DNA of 64,000 nucleotides from an uncultured Roseovarius sp. (GTDB lineage: Bacteria > Pseudomonadota > Alphaproteobacteria > Rhodobacterales > Rhodobacteraceae): the NCBI GenBank assembly GCA_951812895.1, contig OX638333.1:2956001-3020000 (forward strand). The letters are read 5' to 3'. Made by a program: the position numbers and the translations under genes. Of the stretch, positions 15,125 through 36,639 are shown one piece after another. The notes under the pieces were generated by a model that did no database searches, was not told the DNA's origin, and saw only the letters and a list, made by a program, of their open reading frames with translations. Positions within the stretch are counted from its first letter, which is position 1. Every line of letters begins with the position of its first letter.

Positions 15125-16402
15125 TCACGCAACTATTGCCTTAGCTGCTGCATGATAGGCGGCTTCAGTTTGGGCAAAGTCCTCTTCTGTGAGGGCCAAT
15201 GAGGGGTATGTCTTGCCCGGAGCTTTGAAAATGCCGCGCAGACGCAGGTCCGCGTTGAAGCGACTGGCGCGCTCGGTGTCAGACAGAAGCACATTTCGGT
15301 AGTCGCGAATCTCTGCGTCTGAGAAGACAATTTCGAACAGGGTGCGATCGCCGACAACACGGTGGTCAATCCCATGTTCCTTGAGCGCGGCAGAGGCGGC
15401 ATCCATCAGGCGCTGTCCATTCGCACGCAGTTTGTCGAACTGGCCTTCGCGGCGCAAAATCTCCATGGTCTTGAGACCCGCCACAGCCGCAACCGGGTTG
15501 CCGGAAAGCGTACCAAGCTGCATCAGCCATCTGTCAGACCCAACCGATGCCTTGTCAAAATGAGCCATGATATCTGCGCGGCCTGCGGTTGCCGCCAGAG
15601 GGAAACCGCCGCCAATGATTTTGCCGAGCGTGCACAGATCAGGTGAGACGCCATACAACTCTTGTGCGCCGCCATAAGAAAAGCGGAACCCGGTGACAAC
15701 CTCATCAAAGATCAGGACAATTCCGTATTTGGTGCATTCATCGCGCAAAAGCTGCAGAAAGCCCGGCTCTGGTGGAATGATCCTTTGTAACGGTTCGACG
15801 ATAAGGCCCGCGATCTGGTCGCCGTATTCGGCGAGCAGAGAGCGGATGTAATCAAAATCGTTGAACGGCGCGATCAGCATTTCGTCGGCAACGGATTGCG
15901 GGATGCCAGCACTGTCGGGTACGGCCATCGGGAAATTGACCATCTTTGAAGGGGCCAGCGACATCTGCGCCTCTGCCGACATGCCATGATAGCCGCCTTC
16001 GAATTTCACGATCTTATCGCGCCCGGTATAGGCGCGGGCTGCGCGGATGGCGTACATATCGGCCTCGCCGCCGGAACTGACATAGCGCAGTTGTTCGGCG
16101 CAGGGGACGGCGCGAATGATTTCTTCAGCCAGTTCGATGGCGGCGGCGTTGTTGGCGAAAAAGGTCTGACCCTTGGGCAATTGCTCAAAAATCACTTCGA
16201 GCACTTCCGGATGGCCGTGGCCAAGCAGCATCGGGCCGGAACCGATCAGATAGTCGATATATTCATTGCCGTCTTCGTCCCAGACGCGGCTGCCTTTGCC
16301 TTCGCGGATAAAGATCGAGGGGTCAAAATTACCCAATCCACCGCCGGGAAGTGTTTCGCGGGCGCGGTCGATCCAGTCTTGTTGGGTGTGGGTTTTGAGC
16401 AT
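15125..16402 (-). CDS. Class III PLP aminotransferase (glutamate-1-semialdehyde aminomutase-like)
   Basis: 425 residues. Signature pieces of class III aminotransferases: YIDYLIGSGPMLLGHGHP, YVSSGGEADMYAIRAARAYTG (phosphate and substrate contact), EGGYHG, IFDEVVTGFR with Asp233 holding the PLP pyridine, and LGKIIGGGFP with Lys261 as the Schiff-base lysine. The overall form is closest to the HemL/GSA-aminomutase branch, but the position as last gene of an osmolyte-catabolic operon argues for a catabolic transaminase or aminomutase rather than haem synthesis. It starts 11 bp after the stop of the first enolase-superfamily gene and is followed by a hairpin. Substrate is inferred only as an amino acid or amine released by the upstream steps. 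Confidence 0.88.
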   Translation of the reverse strand: MLKTHTQQDWIDRARETLPGGGLGNFDPSIFIREGKGSRVWDEDGNEYIDYLIGSGPMLLGHGHPEVLEVIFEQLPKGQTFFANNAAAIELAEEIIRAVPCAEQLRYVSSGGEADMYAIRAARAYTGRDKIVKFEGGYHGMSAEAQMSLAPSKMVNFPMAVPDSAGIPQSVADEMLIAPFNDFDYIRSLLAEYGDQIAGLIVEPLQRIIPPEPGFLQLLRDECTKYGIVLIFDEVVTGFRFSYGGAQELYGVSPDLCTLGKIIGGGFPLAATAGRADIMAHFDKASVGSDRWLMQLGTLSGNPVAAVAGLKTMEILRREGQFDKLRANGQRLMDAASAALKEHGIDHRVVGDRTLFEIVFSDAEIRDYRNVLLSDTERASRFNADLRLRGIFKAPGKTYPSLALTEEDFAQTEAAYHAAAKAIVA

Positions 16403-16413
16403 GGGAGTCTCCG

Positions 16414-17517
16414 TCAGTCGAGAACGATGTCAGGTGCGCCGATACCATCGGCGTCGGGGGTGATGCCGAGGCCGGGCCCTTCGGGTGGGGCGATGCGGCC
16501 GTGATGGCGGGTGGGGGTGTCAGGGGCGAGGCGAGGCCCGACATAATGGTTAAGATCGCAGGTGTTCATCAACACGCGGGGTGGCGTGGCGGCGGCCAGG
16601 TGCAGGACGGCGGCGGTGGTTATGTCGCTGCCCCAGGTGTCTTCGATACACATCTGTGTGCCCAGTATCAGGCACAGATCACGGGCTGCGCGCATGGCGG
16701 AGAGACCACCAAATTTAGATAGCTTGAGCGCGGCAGCATCCATGCACCCGCTGGCATGGCCGTCGAGCAAGGAGGCGATATCATGGGCGGTTTCATCGAG
16801 CTTCATCGGCAGTCCGGTGGCTTGCCTGACATGGGCGCATTCGGCGGTGGTGGCGCAGGGTTGTTCCAGCATAACATCGAGATGGGCAACAGCGCGTCCG
16901 GTGCGCGTGGCACTTAGAGCATCAGATCCGCAGTTCCAGTCGCCATAGACAAGTGGGCCGTTGCCGACGGCTTCGCGCACTTTGGCCAAACGCTCGGCAT
17001 CGGTCTGCCAATCCGCATCTGCGCCAAGTTTGACCTGAAACTGACGCATGCCCTGATCAAAGGCGTCGCGGGCCATACGCGCCATTTCGTCAGGTGCGAT
17101 GCAGGTGATCGAATGGTAAAGCGGCATGTCCTGTGTGGTCCGTCCGCCGAGGAGGGCATAGAGCGGCAAATTGGCGGCCTTGCCGGTCAGATCCCAAAGT
17201 GCCGTATCGATGAGGGATTTGGCATAGTCATGGCCCTGAAGATGTTTGTTGAGCTGCTCGATCAGCGCCTCTGGCCCGACGGGATTGGCACCAAGCAGGA
17301 CGGGTGCCAGTTCGGTGAGGGCAGGGGCAGTGCCGCCTGCATAGGCCGGCAGGTAATGCGGGATCGGGCAGACCTCTCCCCAGCCCGAATGGGCGCTGTC
17401 GGTGTCGATGCGCAGGATCACGGTTGTGGTTTGATCGCATGTTTTTCCATCTGCCATATAATAGGTTTCATGGGCAGTGAGCGGGACGTGCCAGAGGGAG
17501 AGGCGAGTGATTTTCAT
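16414..17517 (-). CDS. Enolase-superfamily protein, A type, hydroxyproline-betaine epimerase-like
   Basis: 367 residues, MLE subgroup of the enolase superfamily. Metal ligands Asp193 (GDWN), Glu218 (LEQPC) and Asp241 (KLDET); acid/base lysines Lys163 (QVKLG) and Lys265 (LKLSKFGG). As I recall, the same two lysine numbers are described for 4-hydroxyproline betaine 2-epimerase HpbD, and related proteins are cis-3-hydroxyproline dehydratases. Both act by abstracting the alpha-proton of an amino-acid carboxylate stabilised by Mg2+. A paralogue of the gene at 19102-20214: both have Gln two residues before the first catalytic Lys and start MKITR. A 70-bp intergenic repeat separates it from the upstream enolase gene. 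Substrate specificity is inference. Confidence 0.85.
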   Translation of the reverse strand: MKITRLSLWHVPLTAHETYYMADGKTCDQTTTVILRIDTDSAHSGWGEVCPIPHYLPAYAGGTAPALTELAPVLLGANPVGPEALIEQLNKHLQGHDYAKSLIDTALWDLTGKAANLPLYALLGGRTTQDMPLYHSITCIAPDEMARMARDAFDQGMRQFQVKLGADADWQTDAERLAKVREAVGNGPLVYGDWNCGSDALSATRTGRAVAHLDVMLEQPCATTAECAHVRQATGLPMKLDETAHDIASLLDGHASGCMDAAALKLSKFGGLSAMRAARDLCLILGTQMCIEDTWGSDITTAAVLHLAAATPPRVLMNTCDLNHYVGPRLAPDTPTRHHGRIAPPEGPGLGITPDADGIGAPDIVLD

Positions 17518-17551
17518 GGGTGGGTAATTAACCTGTTAGGCGTGACTGGGA

Positions 17552-17621: not shown

Positions 17622-17631
17622 GGGCATTGGG

Positions 17632-18741
17632 TCAGCCTTCGTAGATTGCGGTGGGTGCGCCAAGCGCCGCAGGGTCCGGGGTGACGCCGAGGCCCGGGGA
17701 GGAGGGAGGCGCGGCAAAGCCCGAGACATTGCGCGCGCCCTGTCCCGGGACGGGGTCGGTGGCAAGGTGATAGTGGCAGAGCCAGCTGGCGAGGCGGTTG
17801 GCATCAGGTGTGGAGGCGGCAAGGTGAATAGCGACGGTATCGGCGAGAGCCGAGCCGCCGACGTCTTCGATATGCATCTGCCAGCCGACGGAGACGCCGA
17901 AATCGCGAATCTGGCGTGATTTTGTCAGCCCACCCAAACGATTGGGTTTGACCTTGACCCCTTCGCAGGCGTTGCGTTTCCAGGCCTCCAGGTGATCCTG
18001 AAGCGAGTGCATACATTCATCCAGCAGGATTGGATTGGCGACGCGTGCGGCGACATGGGCGCATTGATCCAGTGTTTCGCAGGGTTGTTCAACCCAGTCG
18101 CGGGCGCCGACCGAATTCAGCACCTCGATCGCAGTGGCCGGTTGCCAAGCGCGGTTGACATCAAAGGTGACGCGGTGGCCGGCGGGCAGGGCAGCAGAAA
18201 TTGCTTCGATCCGGGCAATGTCAGCCGCGATATCGGTGCCACCCACCTTGGCCGAATGTACGGTGTAGCCTTTGGCCGCAGCCTGTTCGATCAGGATGAT
18301 CATTTCGTCGGGCGTACCGGTAGAAATGGAGGAGTTCACTGCAACCGGGGTGGCGTCAGAACCGCCAAGCAGTTGCCAGAGGGGCAGGCCGGAGACCTGA
18401 CCGAGAATATCCCAGCAGGCGATGTCGATGGCGGATTTCACGTAAAGATGCCCTGGGAGCTGAATGTCCATTACCCGGTTGATGTGATCCAAGCTGCGCG
18501 GGTCCTGTCCGATCAATGCGGGTGCGAGGGTTTCGATGCCGGCCCGGATGCCCGGCCCGTGAGCAGGCAGGTAGGTATGGCCCCAGGGGCAACCTTCGCC
18601 CCACCCGCAGACACCTTCGTCTGTGTCGATGCGGACGAAAGTGCTGTCGAGCCGTTCGAATTTCAGCCGCCCGCCGGAGAGCCAGTAGGGTGCGTTAAGG
18701 GGCAGGTCGAGCTGCCAGACAGTGATGCGGGTGATCTTCAC
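17632..18741 (-). CDS. Enolase-superfamily protein, B type
   Basis: 369 residues from a GTG at 18741. The reading frame stays open to 18807, but starting at 18741 aligns the N-terminus (VKITRITVWQ) with its paralogues. Metal ligands Asp194 (TFDVNR), Glu218 (VEQPC) and Asp241 (LLDEC); lysines Lys165 (HSAKVGG) and Lys263/Lys265 (GVKVKPNRLGG). It shares with the gene at 20332-21456 the N-terminal LSGGR loop and the HSxK form of the first lysine motif, so the two form a B subfamily distinct from the A-type pair. MLE-type racemase, epimerase or dehydratase chemistry on a carboxylate is expected. It follows the small cupin gene by 79 bp. Confidence 0.85.
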   Translation of the reverse strand: MKITRITVWQLDLPLNAPYWLSGGRLKFERLDSTFVRIDTDEGVCGWGEGCPWGHTYLPAHGPGIRAGIETLAPALIGQDPRSLDHINRVMDIQLPGHLYVKSAIDIACWDILGQVSGLPLWQLLGGSDATPVAVNSSISTGTPDEMIILIEQAAAKGYTVHSAKVGGTDIAADIARIEAISAALPAGHRVTFDVNRAWQPATAIEVLNSVGARDWVEQPCETLDQCAHVAARVANPILLDECMHSLQDHLEAWKRNACEGVKVKPNRLGGLTKSRQIRDFGVSVGWQMHIEDVGGSALADTVAIHLAASTPDANRLASWLCHYHLATDPVPGQGARNVSGFAAPPSSPGLGVTPDPAALGAPTAIYEG

Positions 18742-18820
18742 GCGGAGGTCCCCCGTTGCAGGCGTATCTTCGGTAGGGAAGCCGCAACATGAGTATTTGA
18801 AGAACACTGAAAGCGGGGGA

Positions 18821-19105
18821 TCATTTCAGCTCTACCTCTACAAAGGACATGGGCTCTGAACCCGCGTTGATGACATTGTGAGAAACACCGGCTTCCCGGC
18901 GGTAAGCGGTACCCGCTGGGATCGTGACTTCGCGCGTGTCGCCGCCGGGCTCTTCGAGGCGCATGTGGCAATCGGTCAGGGTGGTGATGACATAGTCAAA
19001 TTCATGCACATGCCAGCCGGTGTCCTGTCCGGGTTGGAAGTCAAAACGGGTGACCCGGGTGCGTTCGTCATCGATTAGCTGGGTTGCGGCGCAATTTGTG
19101 CTCAT
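18821..19105 (-). CDS. Small single-domain cupin
   Basis: 94 residues, one cupin barrel: GQDTGWHVHEFDYVITTLTDC gives the first motif (HVHEFDY) and AGVSHNVIN the second His. No signal peptide. Unlike the DddQ-like proteins it lacks the N-terminal helical region and the HxHxxEExY motif. Its ATG overlaps the stop of the A-type enolase gene upstream (ATGA, 19102-19105), so it is translationally coupled. Such tiny cupins often bind a metal and a small acid and may act as isomerases or as binding/regulatory proteins; the exact role is unknown. Confidence 0.82.
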   Translation of the reverse strand: MSTNCAATQLIDDERTRVTRFDFQPGQDTGWHVHEFDYVITTLTDCHMRLEEPGGDTREVTIPAGTAYRREAGVSHNVINAGSEPMSFVEVELK

Positions 19106-20214
19106 AATGGGTCTCCGTAGAGTGCGACAGGTGTGCCGAGGCTATCGAAATCCGGCACAACACCAAGCCCTGGTGTGTCGGTGGCATAGAGTTTTCCGGA
19201 ACTGGTCTTAGGACCGCCAATTCCGGTTGAGCGGGTGTTGTAATTCATGAGGTCAGTGGAATTGATCAGGAATTCCTCGGGCGTTGAGGCCGCGAAATGG
19301 GCGACTGCAGCGCTGGTAATTTCGCCGCCCCAGGTGTCCTCAGACACAACGGGAATGCGATTTTCGATCAGGTAATCGCGAACGCGACGTGCTTTGGACA
19401 ACCCGCCAAGATTGGAGATTTTGAGACAGCACATTTCTGCGCCATGATCTGCGACGATGCGCTGTGCAGCGTGGGTGCCGGTGACGCATTCATCGAGTTT
19501 CATTGGTTGAGTGGCCACGCGGCGAACCTGCTGGCATTCTTCGTAGGTTTTGCAGGGCTGTTCGAGGATGAAGTCGAGATCTTTGGTTGCGCGCGCCACC
19601 CGAATGGCGTTGTCGACGCGCCAGCCCTGATTTGCGTCGGCCATTGCCTTTTCACCGGCTTGGAGCAGCGGTACGGTTTCACGGATGCGGTCGATATCGG
19701 CGGCCCAGTCGGCCCCGACCTTGATCTGGAACTGGCGATAGCCCGCGGTGCGGTGGCGGTCGAGTTCGGCGATGGTTTCGGGAACCGAGCGTTGCGGGGC
19801 CACACGGTACATTGGCGCGCCATCGGTGAGTTTGCCACCCATGAGCATCCACACTGGTTGATCCGTTGCTTTGCCGAGAATGTCCCAGAAGGCGGCATCG
19901 AAGGGCGCCTTGGCGTAGCCATGTCCCTGGACAAGGTGATCCATCAGGCGTTCCACCCGAGCGACCTGGCGCGGGTCTTCACCGAGCAGATGGGGGGCAA
20001 TGAGGCGAGCCAGCGCATCGACGCCTTCGGAATGAGCGACCATGTAGTTTTCGCCGCAGGGGGTGAATTCGCCACAGCCCTGAAGGCCCGCGTCTGTGTC
20101 TATAACAACGACAGAGGCGCGGGCCACGGCAATCGCGTTACCGGCGCCCCAGCTATAGCTGCCGTCAACATAAGGAAGGTCGGTTTTGTAGAGGCGGATG
20201 CGGGTGATTTTCAT
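19102..20214 (-). CDS. Enolase-superfamily protein, A type (second copy)
   Basis: 370 residues. Mg2+ ligands Asp193 (ADANQG), Glu218 (LEQPC), Asp241 (KLDEC); lysines Lys165 (QIKVG) and Lys265 (LKISNLGG). Overall arrangement equals that of cis-3-hydroxy-L-proline dehydratases and hydroxyproline betaine epimerases of the MLE subgroup. It has the same MKITRI start and Gln-x-Lys motif as the gene at 16414-17517, but the capping-domain residues that select the substrate differ (YSWGAGNAIAV here, YYMADGKTCDQ there), so the two probably take different substrates. It is separated from the upstream B-type gene by an intergenic repeat and overlaps the small cupin gene. Confidence 0.85.
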   Translation of the reverse strand: MKITRIRLYKTDLPYVDGSYSWGAGNAIAVARASVVVIDTDAGLQGCGEFTPCGENYMVAHSEGVDALARLIAPHLLGEDPRQVARVERLMDHLVQGHGYAKAPFDAAFWDILGKATDQPVWMLMGGKLTDGAPMYRVAPQRSVPETIAELDRHRTAGYRQFQIKVGADWAADIDRIRETVPLLQAGEKAMADANQGWRVDNAIRVARATKDLDFILEQPCKTYEECQQVRRVATQPMKLDECVTGTHAAQRIVADHGAEMCCLKISNLGGLSKARRVRDYLIENRIPVVSEDTWGGEITSAAVAHFAASTPEEFLINSTDLMNYNTRSTGIGGPKTSSGKLYATDTPGLGVVPDFDSLGTPVALYGDPL

Positions 20215-20257
20215 GGACTGGTCCCGGGCGTTTGCGCCGCCATTGGCGTCGCCGGAG

Positions 20258-20331: not shown

Positions 20332-21456
20332 TCAGTTCCTGTAGGTGGCGACTGGATCGCGCAAAAGGCTTCTGTCCGGCTGGATGCCGAGGCCGGGCTG
20401 GGTGGGGGCAGCGGCGCCGCCATTGATGATGGGGGCATCGAGCGAAGCGGTTGAAAGGGTGACCATGGCGCGGGGGTCAAGTGCGCAACGCAGCAGGTTC
20501 CGGTGGGTGGATTGGGCGATGTGCAGGATTGCGGCGAAGGAAATTTCAGAGCCGACCGTGTCTTGAATGGACATGACCATGCCGGCCGAGGCGGCAAGTG
20601 TTCGCTGGCGGATCATCGGGGTGATGCCGCCCTGTTTGGAAACTTTCAGGCCGACGCCGTCGCAGGTGTCCTGTGCGATGGCGTGGATCAGATCGGCCTC
20701 TGACCGGATGAGTTCATCGAGCAGGATCGGGACAGAGCAGTGCGCGCGGAGAGATTGAGTCTCGCGCCATGTGGCACAGGGTGCTTCGAGGACGAAGTCG
20801 AGGCCCTCCGGCAGTAGGGCCAGCATGCGCAGGGCGTGTTCCGGGGTCAGGCCATTGTTGGCATCGGCCAGAAACCATTCGCCGGGCTGACGATCGGTGA
20901 GGCAGGCGCGAATGCGCTCGGCATCAAGCTGTGGTCCGCCTTCGGCTTCCGTGGCGCCGATCTTGATGGAATGGCCGGTGAACCCTTCTGAGCGGTGCGC
21001 CGCGACTTTGGCGCGCATTGCGTCGGGCGTGTCGCCGCCGATGGAGGAGATGACCGGGACCGGTTCTGTGATGCGACCGCCGAGCATATCGCAGAGCGGC
21101 AGGCCCGTGGACTTTGCCGCGATGTCCCAGCAGGCGACATCGAGTGCGCAGCGCGCATCGCGGTGGCCGCGCAGGGTATTGCGCATGGTGTCCCACAGGC
21201 GGTCGTGATGACGCGGGTCGAGGCCGATCAGGACGGGCGCGAGCAGGTCTATTCCGGCACGTGTGCCCCCTGGGTGTGCTGCGATGTAAGTGGAGCCAAA
21301 GGGTGTGCTTTCGCCCCAGCCTTCGGTTCCACAGTCGGTGATCACGCGGGCGATAGTGGCGTCATAGCTGGTATACTCCCGCCCGCCTGACAGCCGGTAA
21401 ACCCCGCCGCGCACGGGCAGATCAACCTGGTAAATCTCGATCCGGGCTATTTTCAT
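20332..21456 (-). CDS. Enolase-superfamily protein, B type (second copy)
   Basis: 374 residues. Ligands Asp198 (ADANNG), Glu224 (LEAPC) and Asp247 (LLDEL), lysines Lys165 (HSIKIGA) and Lys271 (GLKVSKQGG). A small insertion (EAEGGPQL, about residue 170) shifts the numbering after the first lysine relative to its paralogues. It shares LSGGR and HSxK with the gene at 17632-18741. The usual EQP of the second ligand loop is EAP here. Its ATG overlaps the stop of the DddQ-like gene upstream (ATGA, 21453-21456). Same fold and chemistry as the other three; substrate unknown. Confidence 0.85.
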   Translation of the reverse strand: MKIARIEIYQVDLPVRGGVYRLSGGREYTSYDATIARVITDCGTEGWGESTPFGSTYIAAHPGGTRAGIDLLAPVLIGLDPRHHDRLWDTMRNTLRGHRDARCALDVACWDIAAKSTGLPLCDMLGGRITEPVPVISSIGGDTPDAMRAKVAAHRSEGFTGHSIKIGATEAEGGPQLDAERIRACLTDRQPGEWFLADANNGLTPEHALRMLALLPEGLDFVLEAPCATWRETQSLRAHCSVPILLDELIRSEADLIHAIAQDTCDGVGLKVSKQGGITPMIRQRTLAASAGMVMSIQDTVGSEISFAAILHIAQSTHRNLLRCALDPRAMVTLSTASLDAPIINGGAAAPTQPGLGIQPDRSLLRDPVATYRN

Positions 21457-22046
21457 GCCGTCATCCTTGGATCAGCGGCCAAACCGTCGCCGCGCCAGAG
21501 CACAAAGACCAGAAGCGGCTTATCCGAGGTGGAAAGGGCGTGCGGCTGTTCTGATGGGTGAAACCGGGTTCCGCCGGGGCCGAGGGTAAGAGTTTCGGCG
21601 CCATCAAGACGGAATTCGCCCGCGCCGGAGACAATGGTATAAAGCTCTTCTGGTTCATGTTGGTGGCGGCCGTAGTCGAGCCCTGGACCCCAGTAACCGA
21701 CGGTCATGCGGATCTGTTGGGAGTGGAAATGCCCGGTGGGTCCGGCAAGTTCGAACCAGCCAAAGCGTTTGAGAAAGTCGCAACCGACCTCGTCTTCGGT
21801 GTATGTGAGACGCCACTCTGCGAAAGGAGCTGTGGCCAGAAGGGCATCGCGCAGAGAACGGCTTGTGTCGTTGGCTGTGCCGGGGTCTTTGGTGAGGTGG
21901 GCAATCACACTTTGCGGGACCGGTGGGCGACCGGCCCAAGTTAAATCATCGGGCCAGTCGGCAAACTCTTGCATTGCCGGAAGCGCCATATACCATTCGT
22001 GGGCAGCGGCGAGTAACTTATCAAAGGTAGCCCGTGCTGTGGTCAC
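21453..22046 (-). CDS. dddQ: DddQ-like cupin (DMSP-lyase-like family), copy 1
   Basis: 197 residues: a helical N-terminal region followed by one cupin barrel. The metal/catalytic motif HxHxxEExY is present as RHQHEPEELY (His128, His130, Glu134, Tyr136), with the later His at FHPSEQPHA (His169) and the family ending VLWRGDGL. In DddQ the Tyr of this motif is the base that splits DMSP into DMS and acrylate. Family members can show weak DMSP activity and their native substrate is disputed. Starts with GTG that overlaps the stop of copy 2 (GTGA). The most diverged of the three copies (Arg in place of the first His of the HHH cluster). Confidence 0.82.
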   Translation of the reverse strand: MTTARATFDKLLAAAHEWYMALPAMQEFADWPDDLTWAGRPPVPQSVIAHLTKDPGTANDTSRSLRDALLATAPFAEWRLTYTEDEVGCDFLKRFGWFELAGPTGHFHSQQIRMTVGYWGPGLDYGRHQHEPEELYTIVSGAGEFRLDGAETLTLGPGGTRFHPSEQPHALSTSDKPLLVFVLWRGDGLAADPRMTA

Positions 22047-22636
22047 AGCAGAACCTCCGGTGCGGTCAGGACGGGTTTGGTGGTCAAGTCACCGCGCCAT
22101 AGAACATAAGTCATGATCGGTTGGTCATGGGTTGTCAGTGCGTGGGGAATGTTTGAGCGGTGGTAAATTGTATTGCCAGAGCTCAACATTCTGGGCTCTT
22201 CACCTGAAATGGCGAACTCGCCCTGGCCCGCAACCACAAGGTAAAGCTCTTCTGCAGGATGATGATGCCAGGGGTAATGCAGGCCTGCGGGAAAATAGAG
22301 AACGAAGCCACGCATCTGATCGGTGGCAAAAGGGGCGTCGCGACCGAGAATTTCGTAGCAGGCAAAGCTGTCCTCAAAATCCTGTCCCAATGGCCCGCCT
22401 TTGTAGGTTTCGCGCCATTGTGCGAGCGGGCCCGCATCGATGAGGGCCTCGCGAAATCCGGCAAGGTGATCAGCGCAGGGTGACCTGTCATTGAGCATGA
22501 GGTCGGCAGCCTTTGACTTGTAAGGTGTGATTGGGTTTTCGGCCAGCGGGGTGGGAAACGGGCAAAACTTTTGCAGCGTGGGCAACTTGTGCACCGCCTG
22601 TGTTTCTCTCAAAAGATTTGTCCAGCGTTGGTCCAT
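22043..22636 (-). CDS. dddQ: DddQ-like cupin, copy 2
   Basis: 197 residues with the same layout as its neighbours. Motif WHHHPAEELY (His124, His126, Glu130, Tyr132) and second-half His165 in NIPHALTT, ending VLWRGDLTT. The whole set of DddQ metal and base residues is present, so lyase chemistry on DMSP or a related onium carboxylate is plausible; activity must be measured. AGGGG lies 9 nt upstream of the ATG, so this gene has its own good initiation site after a 100-bp gap from copy 3. Its stop overlaps the GTG of copy 1. Confidence 0.85.
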   Translation of the reverse strand: MDQRWTNLLRETQAVHKLPTLQKFCPFPTPLAENPITPYKSKAADLMLNDRSPCADHLAGFREALIDAGPLAQWRETYKGGPLGQDFEDSFACYEILGRDAPFATDQMRGFVLYFPAGLHYPWHHHPAEELYLVVAGQGEFAISGEEPRMLSSGNTIYHRSNIPHALTTHDQPIMTYVLWRGDLTTKPVLTAPEVLL

Positions 22637-26902: not shown

Positions 26903-26996
26903 GTCGATTTTTCCTCGTGAGAGAGTCGCGAATTTGCTCGACAGCGTATTCGAACAATTGTACCATCGTCAATCATGAATGATACAAATGTACAAT
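26903..26996. promoter_or_regulatory. Divergent promoter region with a TTGTAC inverted repeat
   Basis: The 72-bp gap between the two divergent operons holds an ATTGTAC half-site (26957-26963) matched by GTACAAT (26990-26996), which lies inside the first codons of rpiR; TTGTACCAT (26958-26966) also pairs with ATGATACAA (26979-26987) with one mismatch. This is the natural place for RpiR autoregulation and control of both operons. Confidence 0.55.
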
Positions 26997-28950: not shown

Positions 28951-29024
28951 ACCGGGGTTTGCCCCGGCTGCGGCGGATGCAGGGGTGAGCTCCGGTTTAA
29001 ATCTTGACGAGAGGGCAATTGTTC

Positions 29025-29450
29025 GTGGCTGAGCTGACTGGCAGATGTTTTTGTGGCGCAACGCGATGGCAATCCGAAGGAGAGATGCTTTGGTCGTCCC
29101 TGTGCCATTGCGAAGATTGTCGTCGCGCGGCGTCTTCGGATTATGTGAGCTGGTTTGGAGTGGAGAAGTCCAATACACGCTGGGAGGGGCCGCGCAGAAC
29201 CTACGTATCCTCGCCCGGTGTGACGCGCAGTTTTTGCGGCGAGTGCGGCGCACCGATGTCTTTTGAGACAGAGGTTTTTCCGGAAGAAACCCATCTTTAT
29301 GCCGCGACTTTGGATGGTCCGTCGCTCTATGAGCCAACGGCGCATATTTTCTGGTCCGAGCGTCTGCCATGGGTGCAGGTTTGTGACGACCTGCCAAAAC
29401 ATGAAAAGGGTCTGCAGGCGGCGGCGAAGGCGGGAGAAAAGCTGTTATGA
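29025..29450 (+). CDS. Gfa-like (glutathione-dependent formaldehyde-activating family) zinc protein
   Basis: About 141 residues. Zinc ligands of the Gfa/CENP-V fold are visible as CFCGATRW, CHCEDCRR and CGECGAPMSF. I prefer GTG 29025 because GAGAGGG lies 9 nt upstream; a TTG at 29004 opens the same frame. Members bind zinc and some link glutathione to formaldehyde. Since the neighbouring Rieske and DMGDH-like enzymes should release formaldehyde during demethylation, a detoxifying or carrier role fits, but most family members have no proven activity. Confidence 0.82.
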   Translation: MAELTGRCFCGATRWQSEGEMLWSSLCHCEDCRRAASSDYVSWFGVEKSNTRWEGPRRTYVSSPGVTRSFCGECGAPMSFETEVFPEETHLYAATLDGPSLYEPTAHIFWSERLPWVQVCDDLPKHEKGLQAAAKAGEKLL

Positions 29451-29479: not shown

Positions 29480-30118
29480 GTGGTGCCCCGGGTTGAAGTC
29501 TACTACTCGCTGCAGAGTGACTATTGTTACTTTCTGCTTGATCGGCTGATTGGGTTGGCCGGGCAAGGGGTTGAGGTGGACATTCGTCCGGTTCTTGGCG
29601 GTCTTATCCGTATCCCGGAGCGATACCGCGATCGCGATGCGCTGGAGCAGTCCTATTTCCAAACAGATACACAGCGCGAGGCAGCGTTTTTGGCGCTGCC
29701 GTATGCCTATCCGGATCCATCTCCGATCCGGATGAAACGCGGATCGCTGTGGGTTGCTGAGGCTGAGCAGCCACTGAATGAGTATATCAACAGATTATAT
29801 GCCGGCGCGGCGCGGGCTGGCCGGGCATTGCCTTTTCTGGATCATGTTGGACGGATGCTGTGGGATGGCTCTACGCCCGGTTGGGACAAAGAGATGCATC
29901 TAGAGCGCGCGATGGCGCGGGCCGGGCTGGAAATAGCGGCGGTGTTGGCTGAGACGCCGTGGGAGGTGGCGAAGGCGTTGCTGAATGCCAATGCGGCGGC
30001 GATGCTGGAGGCTGGGCATTGGGGTGTGCCCTTGATGGTTTATGAGGAGGAGCCGTTTTACGGGCAGGATCGGTTCGATCAGCTGGTTTGGCGGATGAAA
30101 GAACGGGGAGATTTATAA
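29480..30118 (+). CDS. DsbA-fold 2-hydroxychromene-2-carboxylate isomerase-like protein
   Basis: 212 residues, thioredoxin-like fold of the DsbA/HCCA isomerase group. The N-terminal VEVYYSLQSDYCYFLLDRL takes the place of the SPYSYL glutathione-binding loop, and a helical insert follows. No CxxC pair is present, so it is not a disulfide oxidoreductase. Related kappa-class GSTs use glutathione to catalyse isomerisation. Starts at GTG 29480, a second GTG follows at 29483. Its stop shares a base with the next ATG (TAATG), so the two are translated as a pair. Function in this operon unknown. Confidence 0.75.
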   Translation: MVPRVEVYYSLQSDYCYFLLDRLIGLAGQGVEVDIRPVLGGLIRIPERYRDRDALEQSYFQTDTQREAAFLALPYAYPDPSPIRMKRGSLWVAEAEQPLNEYINRLYAGAARAGRALPFLDHVGRMLWDGSTPGWDKEMHLERAMARAGLEIAAVLAETPWEVAKALLNANAAAMLEAGHWGVPLMVYEEEPFYGQDRFDQLVWRMKERGDL

Positions 30119-30942
30119 TGTTGATGCCGGATGAGTGGAGACCAGAGCACAAGCTGTTCCCCTATCAGGTGGGCTTTACCTGCCCCCCGTTTGATTATGA
30201 TGCGGCGCCCTCTGACTTTCTACGTATGGCACCGGACAGCGTGGGTGTGCATGGCTGGATGCTGCATGTGCCGAATTATGTGCATGGGCTGGACCAGAGA
30301 AAGCAAAACTTCGGGATGCTTGAGGATTTCGTGCATTGCATGGCGCGCAACGGGGTTGATGTCGCGGGGCAGGTGGGCAGCAACTGGGTTCATGCGAGCG
30401 GTCTGGGCGTCGAGGGAATTCGCCAGCATTGTGAGGATCTGAGCGACAAGTATGGTGTGCAGTTCCATATGGCCGGATATGCCATGGTCGAGGCGTTGCG
30501 CGAGATGAATGTGGAGAAGGTGGCGCTTAACGCGGCCTATCACTGGCCGGAATGGTGGCAGGGGACAGCGGGCTTCCTGAAAGAGGCCGGGTTTGACGTG
30601 CTTTACGCCGGAAATTTTCATGATCAGGGCTGGTTTGAAAGCCAGGAGGCTGTGAATGAGTGCCGTTGGGTGTTTGAGGGTGATCTGGCGGTGAAATCTT
30701 TCGAATATGTGGCTGAACAAGCGCCGGAGGCTGATGCCTATCTGATCAACGGGATGTGCAATTTCCGCAGCGGACCGAACGGCCTGCCGCAACGCCCGCT
30801 GCATCTGACGCGGGAAATCGAGGCGCGTTTGGGCAAACCGCTGATCGCGCATGACACGGCACTTTACTGGCGCATTTTCAAATCACTGGGCCTTGCCCCG
30901 GTTTCACCTCAGGGAAAATTGTTGGGGTCTCTGCATGCATAA
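30118..30942 (+). CDS. Asp/Glu racemase-superfamily protein (maleate isomerase/arylmalonate decarboxylase-like)
   Basis: 274 residues. Two-domain racemase-like pattern: an N-terminal half with VDVAGQVGSNW and a second half with INGMCNFRSG, matching the CTN catalytic-Cys loop of maleate isomerase. The first Cys position is Ser-Asn here (GSNW), so only one of the usual two Cys is present; arylmalonate decarboxylases also use a single Cys of this half. Likely chemistry is isomerisation or decarboxylation of a small di-acid. Start ATG 30118 overlaps the previous stop (TAATG); its own stop lies inside the next gene. No similar protein named from memory. Confidence 0.7.
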   Translation: MLMPDEWRPEHKLFPYQVGFTCPPFDYDAAPSDFLRMAPDSVGVHGWMLHVPNYVHGLDQRKQNFGMLEDFVHCMARNGVDVAGQVGSNWVHASGLGVEGIRQHCEDLSDKYGVQFHMAGYAMVEALREMNVEKVALNAAYHWPEWWQGTAGFLKEAGFDVLYAGNFHDQGWFESQEAVNECRWVFEGDLAVKSFEYVAEQAPEADAYLINGMCNFRSGPNGLPQRPLHLTREIEARLGKPLIAHDTALYWRIFKSLGLAPVSPQGKLLGSLHA

Positions 30943-31675
30943 AATCGTAGCTCTCTGGGCCGTTCCACGGTCTACGTCAACAGCGTTTGAATGGATGATG
31001 CGCCAGCGTGGCGATCTGGATTGTTTACATGAACCTTTTGGTGAGGCCTGGTATCAGGGGGATGCGCCGCTGTGGTTTTTTTACGAACCCGGAGGTGTCC
31101 GAACCCCGGGCCTGACCATGGAGCGTGTCTGGGAAGATATCCAGGCTCGTGCCGCGAAAGGGCCCGTATTTCTTAAGGATTTTCCCCATTATATCAATCA
31201 CTTCTCCACACCAGAGTTTCTGGCACATTTCACCCATGCGTTTTTGATCCGCGATCCGATCAAGACCATTACGTCGGTCTATAACAAGTGGCCCGATTTT
31301 CACGAGGGCGAGGTTGGATTCCCAGAGCAACGCGCGTTGTTCGAACTGATTTGGGCCATCAACGGGGCTCCGCCGCCGGTGATCGACAGTGATGATTTGC
31401 TGGAGAATCCACACGATATGACCCGTGCCTTTTGTGACGCCGTGGACATTCCATTCATTCCCGAGGCGTTGAGTTGGGAACCCGGAGGTGATCCGTCTGA
31501 ACATAGCTGGTGGGATGGCGGATCGTTTCATGCCAACCTGGCCAAATCCACTGGCCTTGTGCCGCAAAAACGCAAATATGTGGAACTGGATGACACACCG
31601 TCCAGAGTGCAGCAGGTTTATCGCCGGATGAAGCCGCATTATGATCGGCTTTATGCGCATCGAATTCAACTCTGA
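30935..31675 (+). CDS. Sulfotransferase-like P-loop protein
   Basis: 246 residues. N-terminal ALWAVPRSTSTAFEWMMRQ resembles the 5'-phosphosulfate loop of PAPS sulfotransferases, and FLIRDPIKTITSVYNKW corresponds to the 3'-phosphate-binding segment. ATG 30935 overlaps the previous stop by 8 bp. The enzyme should transfer sulfate from PAPS, or belong to a related kinase-like branch; its acceptor is unclear in a betaine-catabolic setting. It is the third sulfotransferase-fold gene in the window but is much different from the pair at 38359-40052. Confidence 0.75.
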   Translation: MHKIVALWAVPRSTSTAFEWMMRQRGDLDCLHEPFGEAWYQGDAPLWFFYEPGGVRTPGLTMERVWEDIQARAAKGPVFLKDFPHYINHFSTPEFLAHFTHAFLIRDPIKTITSVYNKWPDFHEGEVGFPEQRALFELIWAINGAPPPVIDSDDLLENPHDMTRAFCDAVDIPFIPEALSWEPGGDPSEHSWWDGGSFHANLAKSTGLVPQKRKYVELDDTPSRVQQVYRRMKPHYDRLYAHRIQL

Positions 31676-31684
31676 AGAGGCATC

Positions 31685-33136
31685 ATGACGCGGGTTAAGC
31701 CGTATTGGCAGAACTATATTGATGGCGCATGGGTCGATGGTGGTGCGGGTCGGGTAGAAGTGATCAATCCCGGTTCAGGCGACGTTCTGGCGGAACATGC
31801 GCTGGCTGATGAGACGGATGTTGACCGTGCAGTGCACGCCGCGAAACGGGTGCATGAAAGTGGTGCTTTGCCCGCGATGCGTCCGGTGGAGCGGGGCCGA
31901 ATGGTGCAGGCGATGGGGCGCTATCTGCTTGATCACATTGATGAAGTCGCACGAATTCTTACGCTGGAGCAGGGCAAGCCACTGTGGGAGGCCCAACATG
32001 AGATTGCCGGGGCAGCAAGGTATTTTGAGTATTATGGCAATCAGGCTGAAACGTTGGAAGGACGGTCAATCCCGCTTGGCTCCGGCTACTTCGATTTCAC
32101 TCATTATGAGCCCTATGGAGTTTCTGCCCAGATCATCCCGTGGAATTTTCCGGTGGAGATGACGGCGCGGTCATTGTCGGCAGGTTTGGCGACCGGGAAC
32201 GCCTGTGTGGTTAAAACGCCAGAGCTGACACCGCTGTCGAGCTGGGTCTTTGCGGATGCGGCAGAGGCAGTCGGTTTGCCCAAAGGTGCGGTTAATGTTT
32301 TGTGCGGTTGGGGCCATCAAGCAGGTGCAGTTCTAAGTGCGCATAAAGATGTCAATCAGATCGTGTTCACCGGTTCCGTAAAAACCGGTATCGCCATAGC
32401 AACCGCCGCTGCACAGAATGTTGTGCCTTGTGTGCTGGAGTTGGGCGGTAAATCGGCGGCGATTGTGTATGACGATGTTGATCTGGATGCGTTCGAGATA
32501 GATATCAGGCAGGGGATATTTAAAAATGCCGGGCAGGTGTGTTCGGCAATGAGTCGTGTACTGGTGCATCAAAACCGCCATGACGATGTGGTGGACCGCG
32601 CGGTAAAGATCGCAAAATCACTGTCGGTGGGTCCGGGGAGTGAACGGGTAGAAGCGGGTCTGAACATGGGGCCTATGGTCAGCATGGCACAGCGCGATAG
32701 GGCCGTGGCGATGGTGGCAGAGGCTGAACGGCAGGGCGCAAATATTGCGACAGGCGGGCGACGTATGAATATTCCCGGTGCGTTTCTTGAACCAACAGTT
32801 CTAACAGATGTGTCGCCTGAGATGACGATCGCTCAGGAGGAGGTTTTCGGTCCTGTTCTGTCGATCATTCCATTCCAAGATGAATCGCAGGCCATCGAAA
32901 TTGCAAACGGCACAGAATATGGGCTGGTTGGGGGTGTTTTTACTCGTGATCTGGACCGTGCGACTCGGGCGGCTCAACGAATTCGAGCTGGGCAAATATT
33001 TGTAAATCAATGGTTTGCCGGTGGTGTTGAGACGCCGTTTGGCGGTTATGGAAAGTCCGGGTATGGCCGGGAAAAAGGCCGAGAAGCATTACTGAATTAT
33101 GTGCAAACCAAAAATGTCGCAATCAGCATCAAGTAA
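31685..33136 (+). CDS. NAD(P)-dependent aldehyde dehydrogenase (betaine-aldehyde dehydrogenase-like)
   Basis: 483 residues, full-length ALDH. Catalytic Cys in NAGQVCSAMSR, general-base Glu in LELGGKSA, NAD loop FTGSVKTG, and PWNFPVEM. It oxidises an aldehyde to the acid. The sequence is closest in character to betaine-aldehyde and semialdehyde dehydrogenases. It starts 9 bp after the sulfotransferase-like gene with GAAGAGG upstream, so it belongs to the same operon. Likely substrate: an aldehyde made by the demethylation or transamination steps; identity not readable. Confidence 0.92.
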   Translation: MTRVKPYWQNYIDGAWVDGGAGRVEVINPGSGDVLAEHALADETDVDRAVHAAKRVHESGALPAMRPVERGRMVQAMGRYLLDHIDEVARILTLEQGKPLWEAQHEIAGAARYFEYYGNQAETLEGRSIPLGSGYFDFTHYEPYGVSAQIIPWNFPVEMTARSLSAGLATGNACVVKTPELTPLSSWVFADAAEAVGLPKGAVNVLCGWGHQAGAVLSAHKDVNQIVFTGSVKTGIAIATAAAQNVVPCVLELGGKSAAIVYDDVDLDAFEIDIRQGIFKNAGQVCSAMSRVLVHQNRHDDVVDRAVKIAKSLSVGPGSERVEAGLNMGPMVSMAQRDRAVAMVAEAERQGANIATGGRRMNIPGAFLEPTVLTDVSPEMTIAQEEVFGPVLSIIPFQDESQAIEIANGTEYGLVGGVFTRDLDRATRAAQRIRAGQIFVNQWFAGGVETPFGGYGKSGYGREKGREALLNYVQTKNVAISIK

Positions 33137-33147
33137 GGGGTCCGCTC

Positions 33148-34368
33148 ATGTCACGACACCCGGAAACCATTCGTGAAGTAGTCGAACATGGGCTTTGTAT
33201 CGGCTGTGGTCTGTGTGAAGCGATTGGGCCTGGGCGCTGGAAAATGGCAATGACGGATGAAGGTCGTCTGCGCCCTGCACCAATTGCATCCGAAGATCCA
33301 GCGGCGGATGCAGAGATTTTGTCTGCTTGCCCCGGAGCGGTGACTGAGGCCGTTGCCGAGGGCGCCCATTCTGACCAGATCTGGGGCAGCTACACTCACA
33401 TGAGCGAAGCTTGGGCTGGTGATACCGACACGCGGTTTCGGGCGGCAACCGGTGGGGTGCTGAGCGCACTTGGGGTGCATCTCTTGAAGACGGAACAGGC
33501 GAAATTTGTGCTGCATTGTGCGGCTGACCCAGAGCATCCGGTGCGATCACGCTGGTTTATGAGCGAAACACCCAAGGAAGTGGTTGCGCGGGCGCAATCG
33601 CGATACGGCCCGTCGGATACATTGGCGGGGCTTGAGATTGCGTTGGGACGAGGTGAGCCTTTTGCCATCATTGCCAAACCGTGTGACGCAGGCGCGATAC
33701 GGGCAAGGACCAAGGACGATCCGCGGATAGATCAATTGGTTGTGGCGGTTCTGGTTATGGTGTGTGGCGGAGCGTCTGATTTAGGTAAATCATGGAACTT
33801 ACTAAGGGAATTCGGCGTTTCAGAAGAAGAAGTGAGCGTATTCCGCTATCGTGGATTTGGCAATCCTGGCCTGACACGGGTAGAGACAGAAGATGGAAAG
33901 GCCTTCGAAAAGACCTATCTGGACCTTTGGGCGGACGAATCCGGATGGCGGATTCAAAGCCGGTGCAAAATCTGCCCCGATGCGATTGGGGAAGCCGCTG
34001 ACATCGCCGCGTTAGACATTTGGCCGGGTGGGGCACCTGCTGGTGAAGATGCGGGGTTCAACGGGATCATAACACGCAATGATCGAGGGCAGGCCCTGAT
34101 GCAGAGTGCGTTTGGTGCTGGTGATCTGGTTCTTGGACAACGACATTCTCCGCGTGATTACGATGATTTTCAGCCCCATCAGGTTTCGAAAAAACGAGCC
34201 GTTGCTGCGCGATTGCGTGGGCTAAGTGCCGCGGGGTATCCGGTTTTTCGACATTGTGGTTTGCGATTGGATGAGTTGGATGCGAAATCCGACAAAGATG
34301 AGCAGGGGGCTCAAGATCGCGCCGAGTCTGGCCGTTTTGCAGAGCAAATGCCAAAGGCCAAATTCTAA
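33148..34368 (+). CDS. FrhB/FdhB-like iron-sulfur flavoprotein (coenzyme F420 hydrogenase beta-subunit family)
   Basis: 406 residues. The N-terminus carries a ferredoxin-like CIGCGLCEAIG motif, then FRAATGGVLSALGVHLL typical of FrhB_FdhB_N, and later RCKICPDAIGEAADIAALDIWPGG of the C-terminal domain. Relatives reduce or oxidise flavin or deazaflavin cofactors, or act as chlorophyllide or other pigment reductases. It lies 11 bp after the aldehyde dehydrogenase gene, so it may be a redox partner of this operon. Whether it feeds electrons to the Rieske enzyme is only a guess. Confidence 0.78.
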   Translation: MSRHPETIREVVEHGLCIGCGLCEAIGPGRWKMAMTDEGRLRPAPIASEDPAADAEILSACPGAVTEAVAEGAHSDQIWGSYTHMSEAWAGDTDTRFRAATGGVLSALGVHLLKTEQAKFVLHCAADPEHPVRSRWFMSETPKEVVARAQSRYGPSDTLAGLEIALGRGEPFAIIAKPCDAGAIRARTKDDPRIDQLVVAVLVMVCGGASDLGKSWNLLREFGVSEEEVSVFRYRGFGNPGLTRVETEDGKAFEKTYLDLWADESGWRIQSRCKICPDAIGEAADIAALDIWPGGAPAGEDAGFNGIITRNDRGQALMQSAFGAGDLVLGQRHSPRDYDDFQPHQVSKKRAVAARLRGLSAAGYPVFRHCGLRLDELDAKSDKDEQGAQDRAESGRFAEQMPKAKF

Positions 34369-34486
34369 GAAACCGGGATCAGACAAAAGTAAGTTGAAGA
34401 AAAAACATTTGCGTTAGTTGGGTCTGGTCGTGTTGAATTCTCTGATTAGCAAAAAATAAGCGATAGCGAACAGGGAGAGTAACGAC

Positions 34487-35317: not shown

Positions 35318-35355
35318 ACCGTAGGCGAATATCTTCAATCAATTAGAGGGCTTAG

Positions 35356-35745
35356 ATGGCAGATTTGTTTAACGAGGACCTTTTCCTCAAAGGGCTGGAA
35401 CAACGCAAAGGGACGCTTGGCGCTGAATATGTCGAGAAGAACCTTGCGGCCGCGGATGAGTTTACGCGGCCGTTCCAGGAGGCGATGACCGCCTGGTGCT
35501 GGGGATTTGGTTGGGGGGACGAAGTGATCGAGCCGAAAACACGCTCGATGATGAACCTCGCTATGCTTGGCGCGCTTGGTAAGATGCATGAATGGGAAAT
35601 TCATTGCCGTGGTGCGCTGACTAACGGTGTCACCAAGGAAGAAATCCGTGCCATTGTGCATGTCGTCGCTATCTACTGTGGCGTGCCTCAGGGAATTGAG
35701 TGCTTTCGATCGGCTCGCAAAGTTCTGGAGGAGGAGGGGCTCTGA
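35356..35745 (+). CDS. Carboxymuconolactone decarboxylase-family protein
   Basis: 129 residues. Helical CMD fold with EEVIEPKTRSMMNLAMLGALGKMHEWEIHCRGALTNGVTKEEI typical of PcaC-like proteins. The CxxC pair of the AhpD branch is absent and the His in HCRGAL is kept, as in the decarboxylase branch. It could decarboxylate a lactone or keto acid in this catabolic locus, or serve as a simple redox protein. The ATG has GAGGG upstream, 39 bp after the PPK2 stop. Confidence 0.88.
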   Translation: MADLFNEDLFLKGLEQRKGTLGAEYVEKNLAAADEFTRPFQEAMTAWCWGFGWGDEVIEPKTRSMMNLAMLGALGKMHEWEIHCRGALTNGVTKEEIRAIVHVVAIYCGVPQGIECFRSARKVLEEEGL

Positions 35746-35805
35746 CAACCTACAGTGTCAAGCAGATGTGGTGTTTGCACATCCGGATCACCCTAGGGTG
35801 ATGAT

Positions 35806-36639
35806 GTGACCACGCCCTGTATCATCTGTGTGGCCATTACCGGCTCTGTCCCGACAAAGGCGGATAATCCGGCGGTTCCCATCACCGTGCCAGAACAGGT
35901 GGAGTCAACTCACGAAGCCTTTGAAGCTGGCGCATCGATCGCCCATTGTCACGTGCGACTGGATGATGGAACGCCCTGTTCTGACCCAGAGCGTTTTGAA
36001 CGCCTTGGCGAAGGAATACGTAAACATTGCCCCGGTATGATCGTGCAGTTTTCGACCGGTGGGCGTTCTGGCGCCGGGCAGGCACGGGGTGGGATGCTGT
36101 CCTTGCGGCCCGATATGGCGTCGTTGTCGGTGGGATCAAACAATTTTCCGACCCGGGTTTACGAGAACCCGCCCGATCTGGTGGCATGGCTGGCGTCTGA
36201 AATGATTGAGTATGAGATTGTACCCGAGATCGAGGCATTTGATCTGAGCCATATTCTTCATGCGATCAGAATGCATCGGGCGGGACAGTTGTATGGTCCA
36301 CTTTATGTGCAATTTGTTCTGGGGGTTAAGAATGCGATGCCGGCAGATAAAGAGGTGTTCGATTTCTATGTGAAGATGGTGCGGAATCGTGCGCCTGAAG
36401 CTCTATGGTGTGCGGCCGGGATTGGGGCCAATCAGATTGTTGTAAATGAATGGGCAATCGCCGCCGGTGGGCATACGCGCACCGGGCTTGAAGACAACAT
36501 TCGGCTAGATCGCGATACGCTGGCCCCCTCAAACGCTGCATTGGTGCGACGTTGCGCTGAGCTTTGTAAAAAGTATGAAAGACCGGTGGCCAGCCCAGCA
36601 GAGGCGCGGGCATTGTTAGGACTGCGACCCGTTGTCTGA
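35806..36639 (+). CDS. BKACE (DUF849) beta-keto acid cleavage enzyme
   Basis: 277 residues. Family marks: zinc ligands in IAHCHVR, STGGRSG, and the ending GGHTRTGLEDNIRL with the Glu that completes the metal site. BKACE enzymes cleave beta-keto acids with acetyl-CoA; known substrates include dehydrocarnitine and 3-keto-5-aminohexanoate. That matches the carnitine/betaine theme of the cluster and would return carbon to central metabolism. Start is GTG 35806, at a 60-bp gap from the CMD gene; the next codons MTTPCIICVAITG are family-like. Confidence 0.9.
   Translation: MTTPCIICVAITGSVPTKADNPAVPITVPEQVESTHEAFEAGASIAHCHVRLDDGTPCSDPERFERLGEGIRKHCPGMIVQFSTGGRSGAGQARGGMLSLRPDMASLSVGSNNFPTRVYENPPDLVAWLASEMIEYEIVPEIEAFDLSHILHAIRMHRAGQLYGPLYVQFVLGVKNAMPADKEVFDFYVKMVRNRAPEALWCAAGIGANQIVVNEWAIAAGGHTRTGLEDNIRLDRDTLAPSNAALVRRCAELCKKYERPVASPAEARALLGLRPVV

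Follow-up and report, generated by a model that had tools for sequence, protein, structure and literature searches.

Which compound is degraded by a locus that joins cupins of the dimethylsulfoniopropionate (DMSP) lyase family DddQ with enolase-superfamily enzymes and N-demethylases? The question is raised by a stretch of 64,000 nucleotides (G000:C1:2956001-3020000, called the window throughout the paper) from the 4.54-Mb single-contig genome of an uncultured Roseovarius sp., in which an 11-gene operon on the minus strand diverges from an rpiR-Rieske operon. Judging from sequence comparisons, we lean toward a modular locus for the catabolism of N-methylated carboxylate zwitterions (betaines), which would be run as one unit under RpiR from a shared divergent operator.

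Gene Content of the Divergent Operons

The minus operon encodes a class-III aminotransferase, four enolase-superfamily enzymes, three DddQ-family cupins, a small cupin, a zinc-binding dehydrogenase (MDR) and a DMGDH-like enzyme, with Pfam matches to Aminotran_3, MR_MLE (four times), DMSP_lyase (three times), ADH_zinc_N and DAO-GCV_T. The divergent plus operon runs rpiR-Rieske-GFA-HCCA-arylmalonate decarboxylase (AMDase)-like-sulfotransferase-ALDH-FrhB; Pfam matches on the plus side were RpiR/SIS, Rieske, GFA, DSBA/HCCA, Amdase, Sulfotransfer_5, Aldedh, FrhB and PPK2. Together with the NCBIfam match of BKACE, these results agree with the families that an initial annotation, made by a model from the sequence alone, had named at their positions. 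Its description of 11 tightly packed and overlapping minus-strand genes, divergent from the rpiR-Rieske operon, was also borne out, as four-base overlaps were read directly at 19102, 21453 and 27859 (ATGA), 22043 (GTGA) and 23333 (TTGA). The eleventh minus-strand gene is SCUP (18821-19105, minus strand), a small single-domain cupin of 94 amino acids (Cupin_2; orthologues of 68–71% in L120, L122 and L173), which is absent from the list of open reading frames due to the minimum length of 100 amino acids used there. With SCUP the operon has four cupins. The three DddQ-like cupins of the initial inventory were thus found again, to which the small cupin and the CMD gene of the plus unit, unnamed before, have to be added. 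Start sites are probably located at 18741 (GTG) for ENO2, 30118 for RACE and 30935 for SULF.

Conservation of the Core Locus and Its Promoter Element

Using an E-value of at most 1e-250 as cutoff and scoring three candidates per genome, with the genome count being a lower bound, a close DMGDH orthologue was found in 50 of 295 genomes of the family (50 of 294 genera). Stretches of up to 20 kb were read around 48 of the 52 DMGDH matches, plus the named loci L007 (Pacificoceanicola onchidii), L009 (Shimia gijangensis) and L011 (a Hyphomicrobiales metagenome-assembled genome, MAG). The matches outside this 48-locus set are the window's own, those of G099 and G236, and the second match of G194. Counts for the plus side refer to 37 loci that extend 7 kb or more on the rpiR side of DMGDH, those for the aminotransferase side to 40 loci in which AT3 has an orthologue of 50% identity or higher. 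The window is included in both sets, and some DMGDH loci are cut by contig ends.

The usual core was found to consist of an aminotransferase, enolase 1 and the DMGDH-like enzyme, diverging from RpiR and the Rieske enzyme, and this divergent arrangement recurs across dozens of genera. In the window these are AT3 (15125-16402, minus strand; GSAM-like, PF00202), ENO1 (16414-17517, minus strand), the DMGDH-like FAD/folate N-demethylase (24425-26902, minus strand; DAO, FAO_M, folate-binding GCV_T and GCV_T_C domains), RPIR (26975-27862, plus strand; a MurR/RpiR-type regulator with a SIS domain) and RIESKE (27859-28950, plus strand; a Rieske oxygenase alpha subunit). In 36 of the 37 loci, DMGDH has RPIR and RIESKE beside it; AT3 is present in 40 of the 52 DMGDH loci, 38 of which also contain ENO1. 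The initial annotation had regarded the genes as one system, and the neighborhood comparison in the Rhodobacteraceae supported this in the form of a conserved divergent operon pair. The locus is real, conserved and modular, and is an enlarged variant of known dddQ neighborhoods.

The gap between DMGDH and rpiR measures 72 bp. A conserved divergent promoter/operator element (26929-26984, plus strand) lies within this gap and the first rpiR codons and is present in 43 of 46 loci. It is composed of a TCGACA-like box, then TGTACCAT, and after 12 bases an imperfect inverted copy, ATGATACA, which extends across the rpiR start codon. As the right arm is coding, part of its conservation has another cause; neither the left arm nor the upstream box is coding. 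We infer that RpiR would bind the shared element and in this way control both operons as one unit. Using a single 19-base pattern and allowing up to 3 mismatches, only the rpiR-DMGDH site was matched in the own genome. A weight-matrix scan of the window and 9 other loci gave no good second site; the best extra one was weak (-7.8 versus a maximum of 93.7) and lies closely upstream of RACE genes in L171.

Nested Accessory Layers

Among the 40 AT3 loci, AT3-ENO1-DMGDH was found alone in 7. ENO2 (17632-18741, minus strand) and MDR (23333-24418, minus strand; zinc-binding dehydrogenase/quinone-reductase-like) were present in 30 loci each, cupins in 18 and ENO3 (19102-20214, minus strand) in 13. All 18 cupin loci possess ENO2 and 17 of them MDR, cupins accompany ENO3 in 12 of its 13 loci, and 22 of the 40 core loci are free of cupins. 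Hypergeometric p-values, with relatedness ignored, were 8e-4 for cupin with ENO2, 0.011 for cupin with MDR and 3.5e-5 for ENO3 with cupin. Each layer showed 6–8 changes on the DMGDH tree, indicating that the layers come and go. On the plus side, CMD was found in 24 of the 37 loci, ALDH in 14, GFA in 12, RACE and SULF in 9, HCCA in 3, and FRHB, PPK2 and BKACE in one each, with most flanks ending near 7 kb, so that distant genes are undercounted.

Four enolases together with three large cupins were observed only in the window among the 40 AT3 loci, and the window has the most large cupins among the loci read. Outside the 40-locus set, G194 (L173) contains six enolase matches, one DddQ-like cupin and the small cupin. 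The initial impression of an unusually large cluster therefore holds for the cupins and fails for the enolases, in whose number this large version is surpassed by G194. In G194 a single strand (about 9165-19998 of L173) carries RACE-SULF-MDR-enolases-cupin-SCUP-ENO2-ENO1-AT3, and DMGDH-HCCA-FRHB-ALDH diverges from RPIR-RIESKE. This gene order ties both halves of the locus together in a different arrangement.

The genome survey with a three-cupin profile (E at most 1e-25) yielded 57 DddQ-like matches in 46 of 295 genomes, 23 of them, in 17 genomes, near DMGDH (within 15 kb). Cupin and DMGDH were present together in 25 genomes (odds ratio 10.7, p-value of 9e-11), and RACE was found in 17 of 295 genomes, all of which contain DMGDH (p-value of 6e-15), with genomes treated as independent in both tests. 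RACE is located clearly far from DMGDH in G073, G082 and G200 and on another contig in G139, G176 and G201; in a class-wide sample it was found in 4 of 385 genomes. Partial versions were seen on stretches without a close DMGDH, where contig ends may hide more, namely MDR-CUP3 beside CMD in L078 (G141), MDR-CUP3-ENO2-ENO1-AT3 in L182 (G160) and MDR-CUP2-ENO3-ENO1 in L188 (G139).

N-Demethylases of the Core

The nearest solved structures of RIESKE are carnitine monooxygenase 6y8j (CntA; 194 bits, a moderate similarity) and then 3vca, which we take to be stachydrine demethylase, presumably acting on a quaternary ammonium substrate. All of them are Rieske alpha subunits. RIESKE scored 154 bits against the GbcA model NF058607 and AT3 364 bits against the HemL model TIGR00713, i.e., below the cut-offs of 670 and 527, respectively. 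With the domains of the DMGDH-like enzyme, these relatives point to N-demethylation of betaines as the probable usual core chemistry, as the initial annotation had proposed for both enzymes. The genes soxB and soxA (sarcosine oxidase; 48334-52949, plus strand), score above their NCBIfam cut-offs and lie about 12 kb away from the locus; their product could complete the demethylation at the stage of secondary amines.

DddQ-Family Cupins

CUP1 (21453-22046), CUP2 (22043-22636) and CUP3 (22737-23336), all on the minus strand, scored 79, 67 and 55.5 bits against PF16867 (cut-off of 27 bits). The six essential residues of DddQ, Tyr120, His123, His125, Glu129, Tyr131 and His163 (PMC4437653), are kept in all three. 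Among 63 cupin rows without a solved structure, five of these residues were kept in all 63 and H125 in 62. In a quick tree of 66 cupins, with often modest support, the solved DddQ proteins 4B29, 4LA2 and 5CU1 fall among cupins of such loci, and the nearest row to CUP1 by path is 4B29 (61% identity). Core and other labels are unreliable in this tree, with some core loci present twice under different ids, and the residue counts are totals. The proteins that define DddQ thus seem to be part of the cupin set of this locus, which agrees with the linkage of MDR028 to dddQ (PMC3338564).

According to that paper, DddQ cupins adjoin MDR028 in the dddQ clusters of Roseovarius nubinhibens ISM and Ruegeria pomeroyi DSS-3, as the cupins adjoin MDR here, the probable counterpart of MDR028. 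The parallel to Roseovarius drawn by the initial annotation, of two dddQ genes and enolases, was correct in outline, with adjacent dddQ1 and dddQ2 located beside the MDR gene in R. nubinhibens (PMC3338564). ENO2, ENO3 and ENO4 match 2QDD, 2RDX and 2PCE, a further likeness. In contrast, the window has three large cupins plus one small and four enolases, and the wider frame of Rieske, DMGDH-like, aminotransferase and RpiR proteins, as well as the cupin-free core, go unmentioned for the known clusters in the accessible text of PMC3338564. A published locus joining DddQ with the enolase, hydroxyproline, betaine or homarine families was not found among titles and abstract starts, which is weak evidence with most subscription journals outside coverage.

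Another cupin DMSP lyase, DddK, converts amines and acrylate to N-substituted beta-amino acids (PMC12582016), which brings C-N beta-chemistry within reach of the cupin fold. By analogy, the cupins of the locus could plausibly add C-N beta-elimination. The accessible text of PMC12582016 contains zero mentions of DddQ or trimethylamine. A fourth above-cut-off PF16867 protein of the genome (85.8 bits) is encoded at G000:C1:2532829-2533242 (L001, L066); L066 gave no tblastn match to CUP1-3 and possibly represents another cupin lyase type.

Enolase-Superfamily Enzymes

ENO1-4 are 33–38% identical to each other and belong to the enolase superfamily (MR/MLE; PF02746 and PF13378), with aligned acidic ligands and two lysines, presumably the metal/lysine catalytic framework. 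ENO2 is 79% identical to 2QDD and ENO3 85% to 2RDX, and ENO4 (20332-21456, minus strand) is an orthologue of 2PCE (637 bits). These three crystallized enzymes, which we take to be R. nubinhibens proteins, carry only generic or putative names in listings. ENO1 lacks a close relative of solved structure, the nearest being 4MGG (40%).

The initial annotation had called the enolases HpbD-type, after the 4-hydroxyproline betaine 2-epimerase, whose locus shares the enolase superfamily and betaine catabolism with the one described here. This did not hold. ENO1-4 are 31–35% identical to 4H2H, and the residue aligned with W320 of HpbD, which presumably has a known role, is Trp in ENO2 alone. An HpbD-type gene of 50% identity to 4H2H and 59.5% to 4E8G is present at L068 in the same genome, with genes for MTTB, an FMN oxidoreductase, DAO, DHDPS and ALDH as neighbors, a set which presumably suits an HpbD-type betaine pathway. 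The best NCBIfam model for all four enolases was NF043002 (cis-3-hydroxyproline dehydratase), and they share 36–44% identity with cis-3-hydroxy-L-proline dehydratase 4MGG, yet their scores of 323, 312.5, 402 and 300 bits for ENO1-4 stay below the cut-off of 500. A C3LHypD gene above this cut-off (515 bits) is located at L067, next to a Rieske enzyme and ABC transporters, which are not diagnostic. In view of the closer genes at L068 and L067, an HpbD/hydroxyproline-betaine assignment of ENO1-4 was rejected. Two further enolase-superfamily matches of the genome, at G000:C1:1783826-1784920 and 1827030-1828124, have identical scores and lie 43 kb apart, perhaps due to a recent duplication of a larger stretch.

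Proposed Function and Alternative Explanations

Starting from the observed gene content, gene order, nested conservation, cupin catalytic residues and shared promoter element, we infer the following reactions on the real substrate and their order. The Rieske enzyme would take a methyl group off the quaternary nitrogen as formaldehyde, to be taken up by GFA where present, and the DMGDH-like FAD/folate enzyme would transfer a further methyl group to folate. ENO1 would act at the alpha-carbon of the carboxylate, by epimerization or beta-elimination, AT3 would remove the amino group and ALDH, where present, would oxidize the resulting semialdehyde. The accessory layers, ENO2 with MDR, then the DddQ cupins, then ENO3, ENO4 and SCUP, may provide direct alpha-proton-abstraction/beta-elimination routes plus an enoyl-type reductase, and may serve alternative or stereo-variant substrates. 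RACE-SULF and CMD could catalyze later steps on a dicarboxylate-like product. This betaine reading draws on the N-demethylase core in nearly all loci, the nearest solved relatives of RIESKE that act on quaternary ammonium compounds, the nested layering, the co-occurrence of cupins and RACE with the core, the G194 arrangement and the promoter element in most loci, as well as on the conserved DddQ residues, the C-N chemistry of DddK and the soxB/soxA pair.

We are aware of several observations that argue against it. No reductase partner for RIESKE was recognized in the locus, for which no dedicated search was made. A conserved transporter adjoining the core in at least 3 loci was not found in the 20-kb stretches; the transporter links seen were TRAP in L179 and, in L078, a weak match to DctM. 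SULF has no evident place in a catabolic pathway. Relatedness is disregarded in the hypergeometric and Fisher tests, and independent-pair sign tests (presence or absence scored for 37 of the 40 loci, excluding L149, L159 and L164; 31 of these in the tree) were not significant, with only 3–4 well-supported pairs. Finally, families unlinked in homologous clusters had been named beforehand as an observation that would speak against a common pathway: the core genes were found linked, and 34 of the 57 DddQ-like matches lie away from a close DMGDH, 11 in DMGDH-bearing genomes and 23 in genomes that lack a close one, where contig ends may hide links.

Could the locus instead serve the cleavage of DMSP or dimethylsulfoxonium propionate (DMSOP), with the cupins as genuine lyases, MDR and others handling acrylate and the N-demethylases processing other onium osmolytes? 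DddQ cleaves DMSP to dimethyl sulfide (DMS) and acrylate, DMSP induces dddQ, and dddQ mutants released 97% less DMS in R. pomeroyi and 20% less in R. nubinhibens (PMC5395565); the loss in R. pomeroyi favors a genuine DMSP role for that cupin and weighs against the betaine reading as well. Most DddQ enzymes are more active in vivo on DMSOP than on DMSP, and DMSOP is also cleaved more efficiently in vitro (PMC10686828). On the other hand, the Km of DddQ from R. lacuscaerulensis for DMSP is about 22 mM (PMC5395565), and DMSP raises dddP and dddQ just 1–4 fold in R. pomeroyi (PMC4437653). MDR as an acrylate detoxifier was rejected, as it is far below the cut-offs for AcuI (NF051456, 41.5 versus 440 bits) and acryloyl-CoA reductase (111 versus 500 bits), and MDR028 of the R. 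nubinhibens dddQ cluster did not correct acrylate sensitivity (PMC3338564). Moreover, over half of the core loci lack cupins and an above-cut-off DmdA (571 bits, cut-off of 410) is encoded elsewhere in the genome. Overall, we consider cleavage of DMSP or DMSOP as the purpose of the locus unlikely.

Even less probable is a carnitine/gamma-butyrobetaine-type pathway, in which a CntA-like Rieske enzyme would free trimethylamine and ALDH would oxidize the semialdehyde. CntA is the best solved relative of RIESKE and ALDH is betaine-aldehyde-dehydrogenase-like, but the similarity to CntA is moderate, ALDH is present in only 14 loci, and the core enolases and the DMGDH-like demethylase would be left unexplained. 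A pathway for hydroxyproline betaine or proline betaine, with HpbD-type epimerases and cis-3-hydroxy-L-proline dehydratases, would account for the best NCBIfam model of the enolases and their identity to 4MGG; we regard it as highly improbable in view of their sub-threshold scores and the closer genes at L068 and L067, and no DHDPS-like deaminase was found among the locus genes scanned. The accessory layers that vary between genomes, the local addition of PPK2 and BKACE and the many DddQ-like cupins elsewhere might also reflect a hot spot between two operons, in which catabolic genes accumulate that have nothing to do with each other. The largely fixed gene order, the shared promoter element, the joint rearrangement in G194 and the co-occurrence of RACE with the core even when far or on another contig make this explanation the most improbable of all.

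Within the betaine reading, one more specific and rather doubtful extension, slightly less credible to us than DMSP or DMSOP cleavage, would be that the DddQ family consists at root of C-N beta-lyases, an accessory layer of N-methyl beta-amino-acid (beta-ammonio-carboxylate) degradation, with cleavage of DMSP and DMSOP as a side activity due to their chemical analogy. A candidate substrate would be an alpha-substituted beta-trimethylammonio-propionate, for example the headgroup of the algal betaine lipid diacylglyceryl hydroxymethyl-trimethyl-beta-alanine (DGTA). It would share the geometry of DMSP, present a chiral alpha-carbon to the enolases, methyl groups to the Rieske and DMGDH-like enzymes and a beta-amino group to the class-III aminotransferase, and yield a substituted malonate on which the AMDase-like RACE could act. 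SULF could activate the hydroxymethyl group for elimination, like 4GBM, its best and weak fold match, which we take to be the curacin sulfotransferase that activates for elimination in biosynthesis. In marine metagenomes, dddQ is counted as a DMS-producing gene despite the high Km (PMC5395565). The position of solved DddQ proteins among cupins of a conserved nitrogen-betaine locus provides a testable alternative native role with named partner enzymes and the cupin-free core as natural control; DddQ as an add-on layer of a nitrogen pathway could alter the reading of its job. The crystallized enolases 2QDD, 2RDX and 2PCE gain a pathway context.

Plus-Operon Genes and Neighboring Features

Downstream of RIESKE, all on the plus strand, follow GFA (29004-29450; glutathione-dependent formaldehyde-activating family), HCCA (29480-30118; HCCA isomerase/DsbA-like), RACE (30118-30942), SULF (30935-31675), ALDH (31685-33136; 424.8 bits versus a cut-off of 668.6) and FRHB (33148-34368; FrhB/FdhB-like), the latter also found in L006, L052/L171 and L173. 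RACE scored 27.4 bits against Pfam PF17645 (cut-off of 25.9) and 23.4 bits against NCBIfam NF052327 (cut-off of 225). Its predicted structure (pLDDT of 88.9) matched 4ix1 best, followed by AMDase, and it has the fold of AMDase and maleate isomerase in common, with an identity to AMDase of 18–21%. A candidate catalytic Cys was found in 12 of 14 RACE sequences; the Cys of the MCNFR motif, presumably the catalytic Cys of AMDase, is replaced by Ser in L175 and by Pro in L165, and RACE as an ordinary racemase or a strictly Cys-dependent AMDase was rejected on this basis. SULF directly follows RACE in every read locus showing RACE. Its predicted sulfotransferase fold is of low confidence (pLDDT of 72.8; 4GBM with E of 4.7e-6 and TM of 0.46), with tyrosylprotein sulfotransferases close behind.

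Further downstream, CMD (35356-35745, plus strand; PcaC-like carboxymuconolactone decarboxylase family), a frequent gene of the plus operon and often its last, is followed by BKACE (35806-36639, plus strand). For BKACE the initial annotation had suggested cleavage of dehydrocarnitine, which was not supported, as the protein exceeds the 3-oxoadipate model NF053568 (484 bits, cut-off of 350). Of 31 loci that extend 1 kb or more beyond CMD, only the window has BKACE following it, and the two genes are also adjacent in the Roseovarius MAG L006. BKACE and PPK2, each found only in the window among the 37 loci, were rejected as parts of the conserved unit and are local additions.

A TRAP transporter, DctP-Q-M (8456-11603, plus strand), is a possible uptake system; in one genome, at L179, RACE-SULF adjoins an orthologous TRAP of 73, 52 and 82% identity. 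In the window, TRAP is followed by a DAO-type FAD oxidoreductase (8456-13027 in total, plus strand), upstream of the ammonium transporter located ahead of the operon, and L006 contains a DAO of 67% identity within the same 20-kb stretch as CUP1/CUP2 and AMT. Downstream of BKACE, two tandem Sulfotransfer_1 proteins are encoded after a porin (38359-40052, plus strand).

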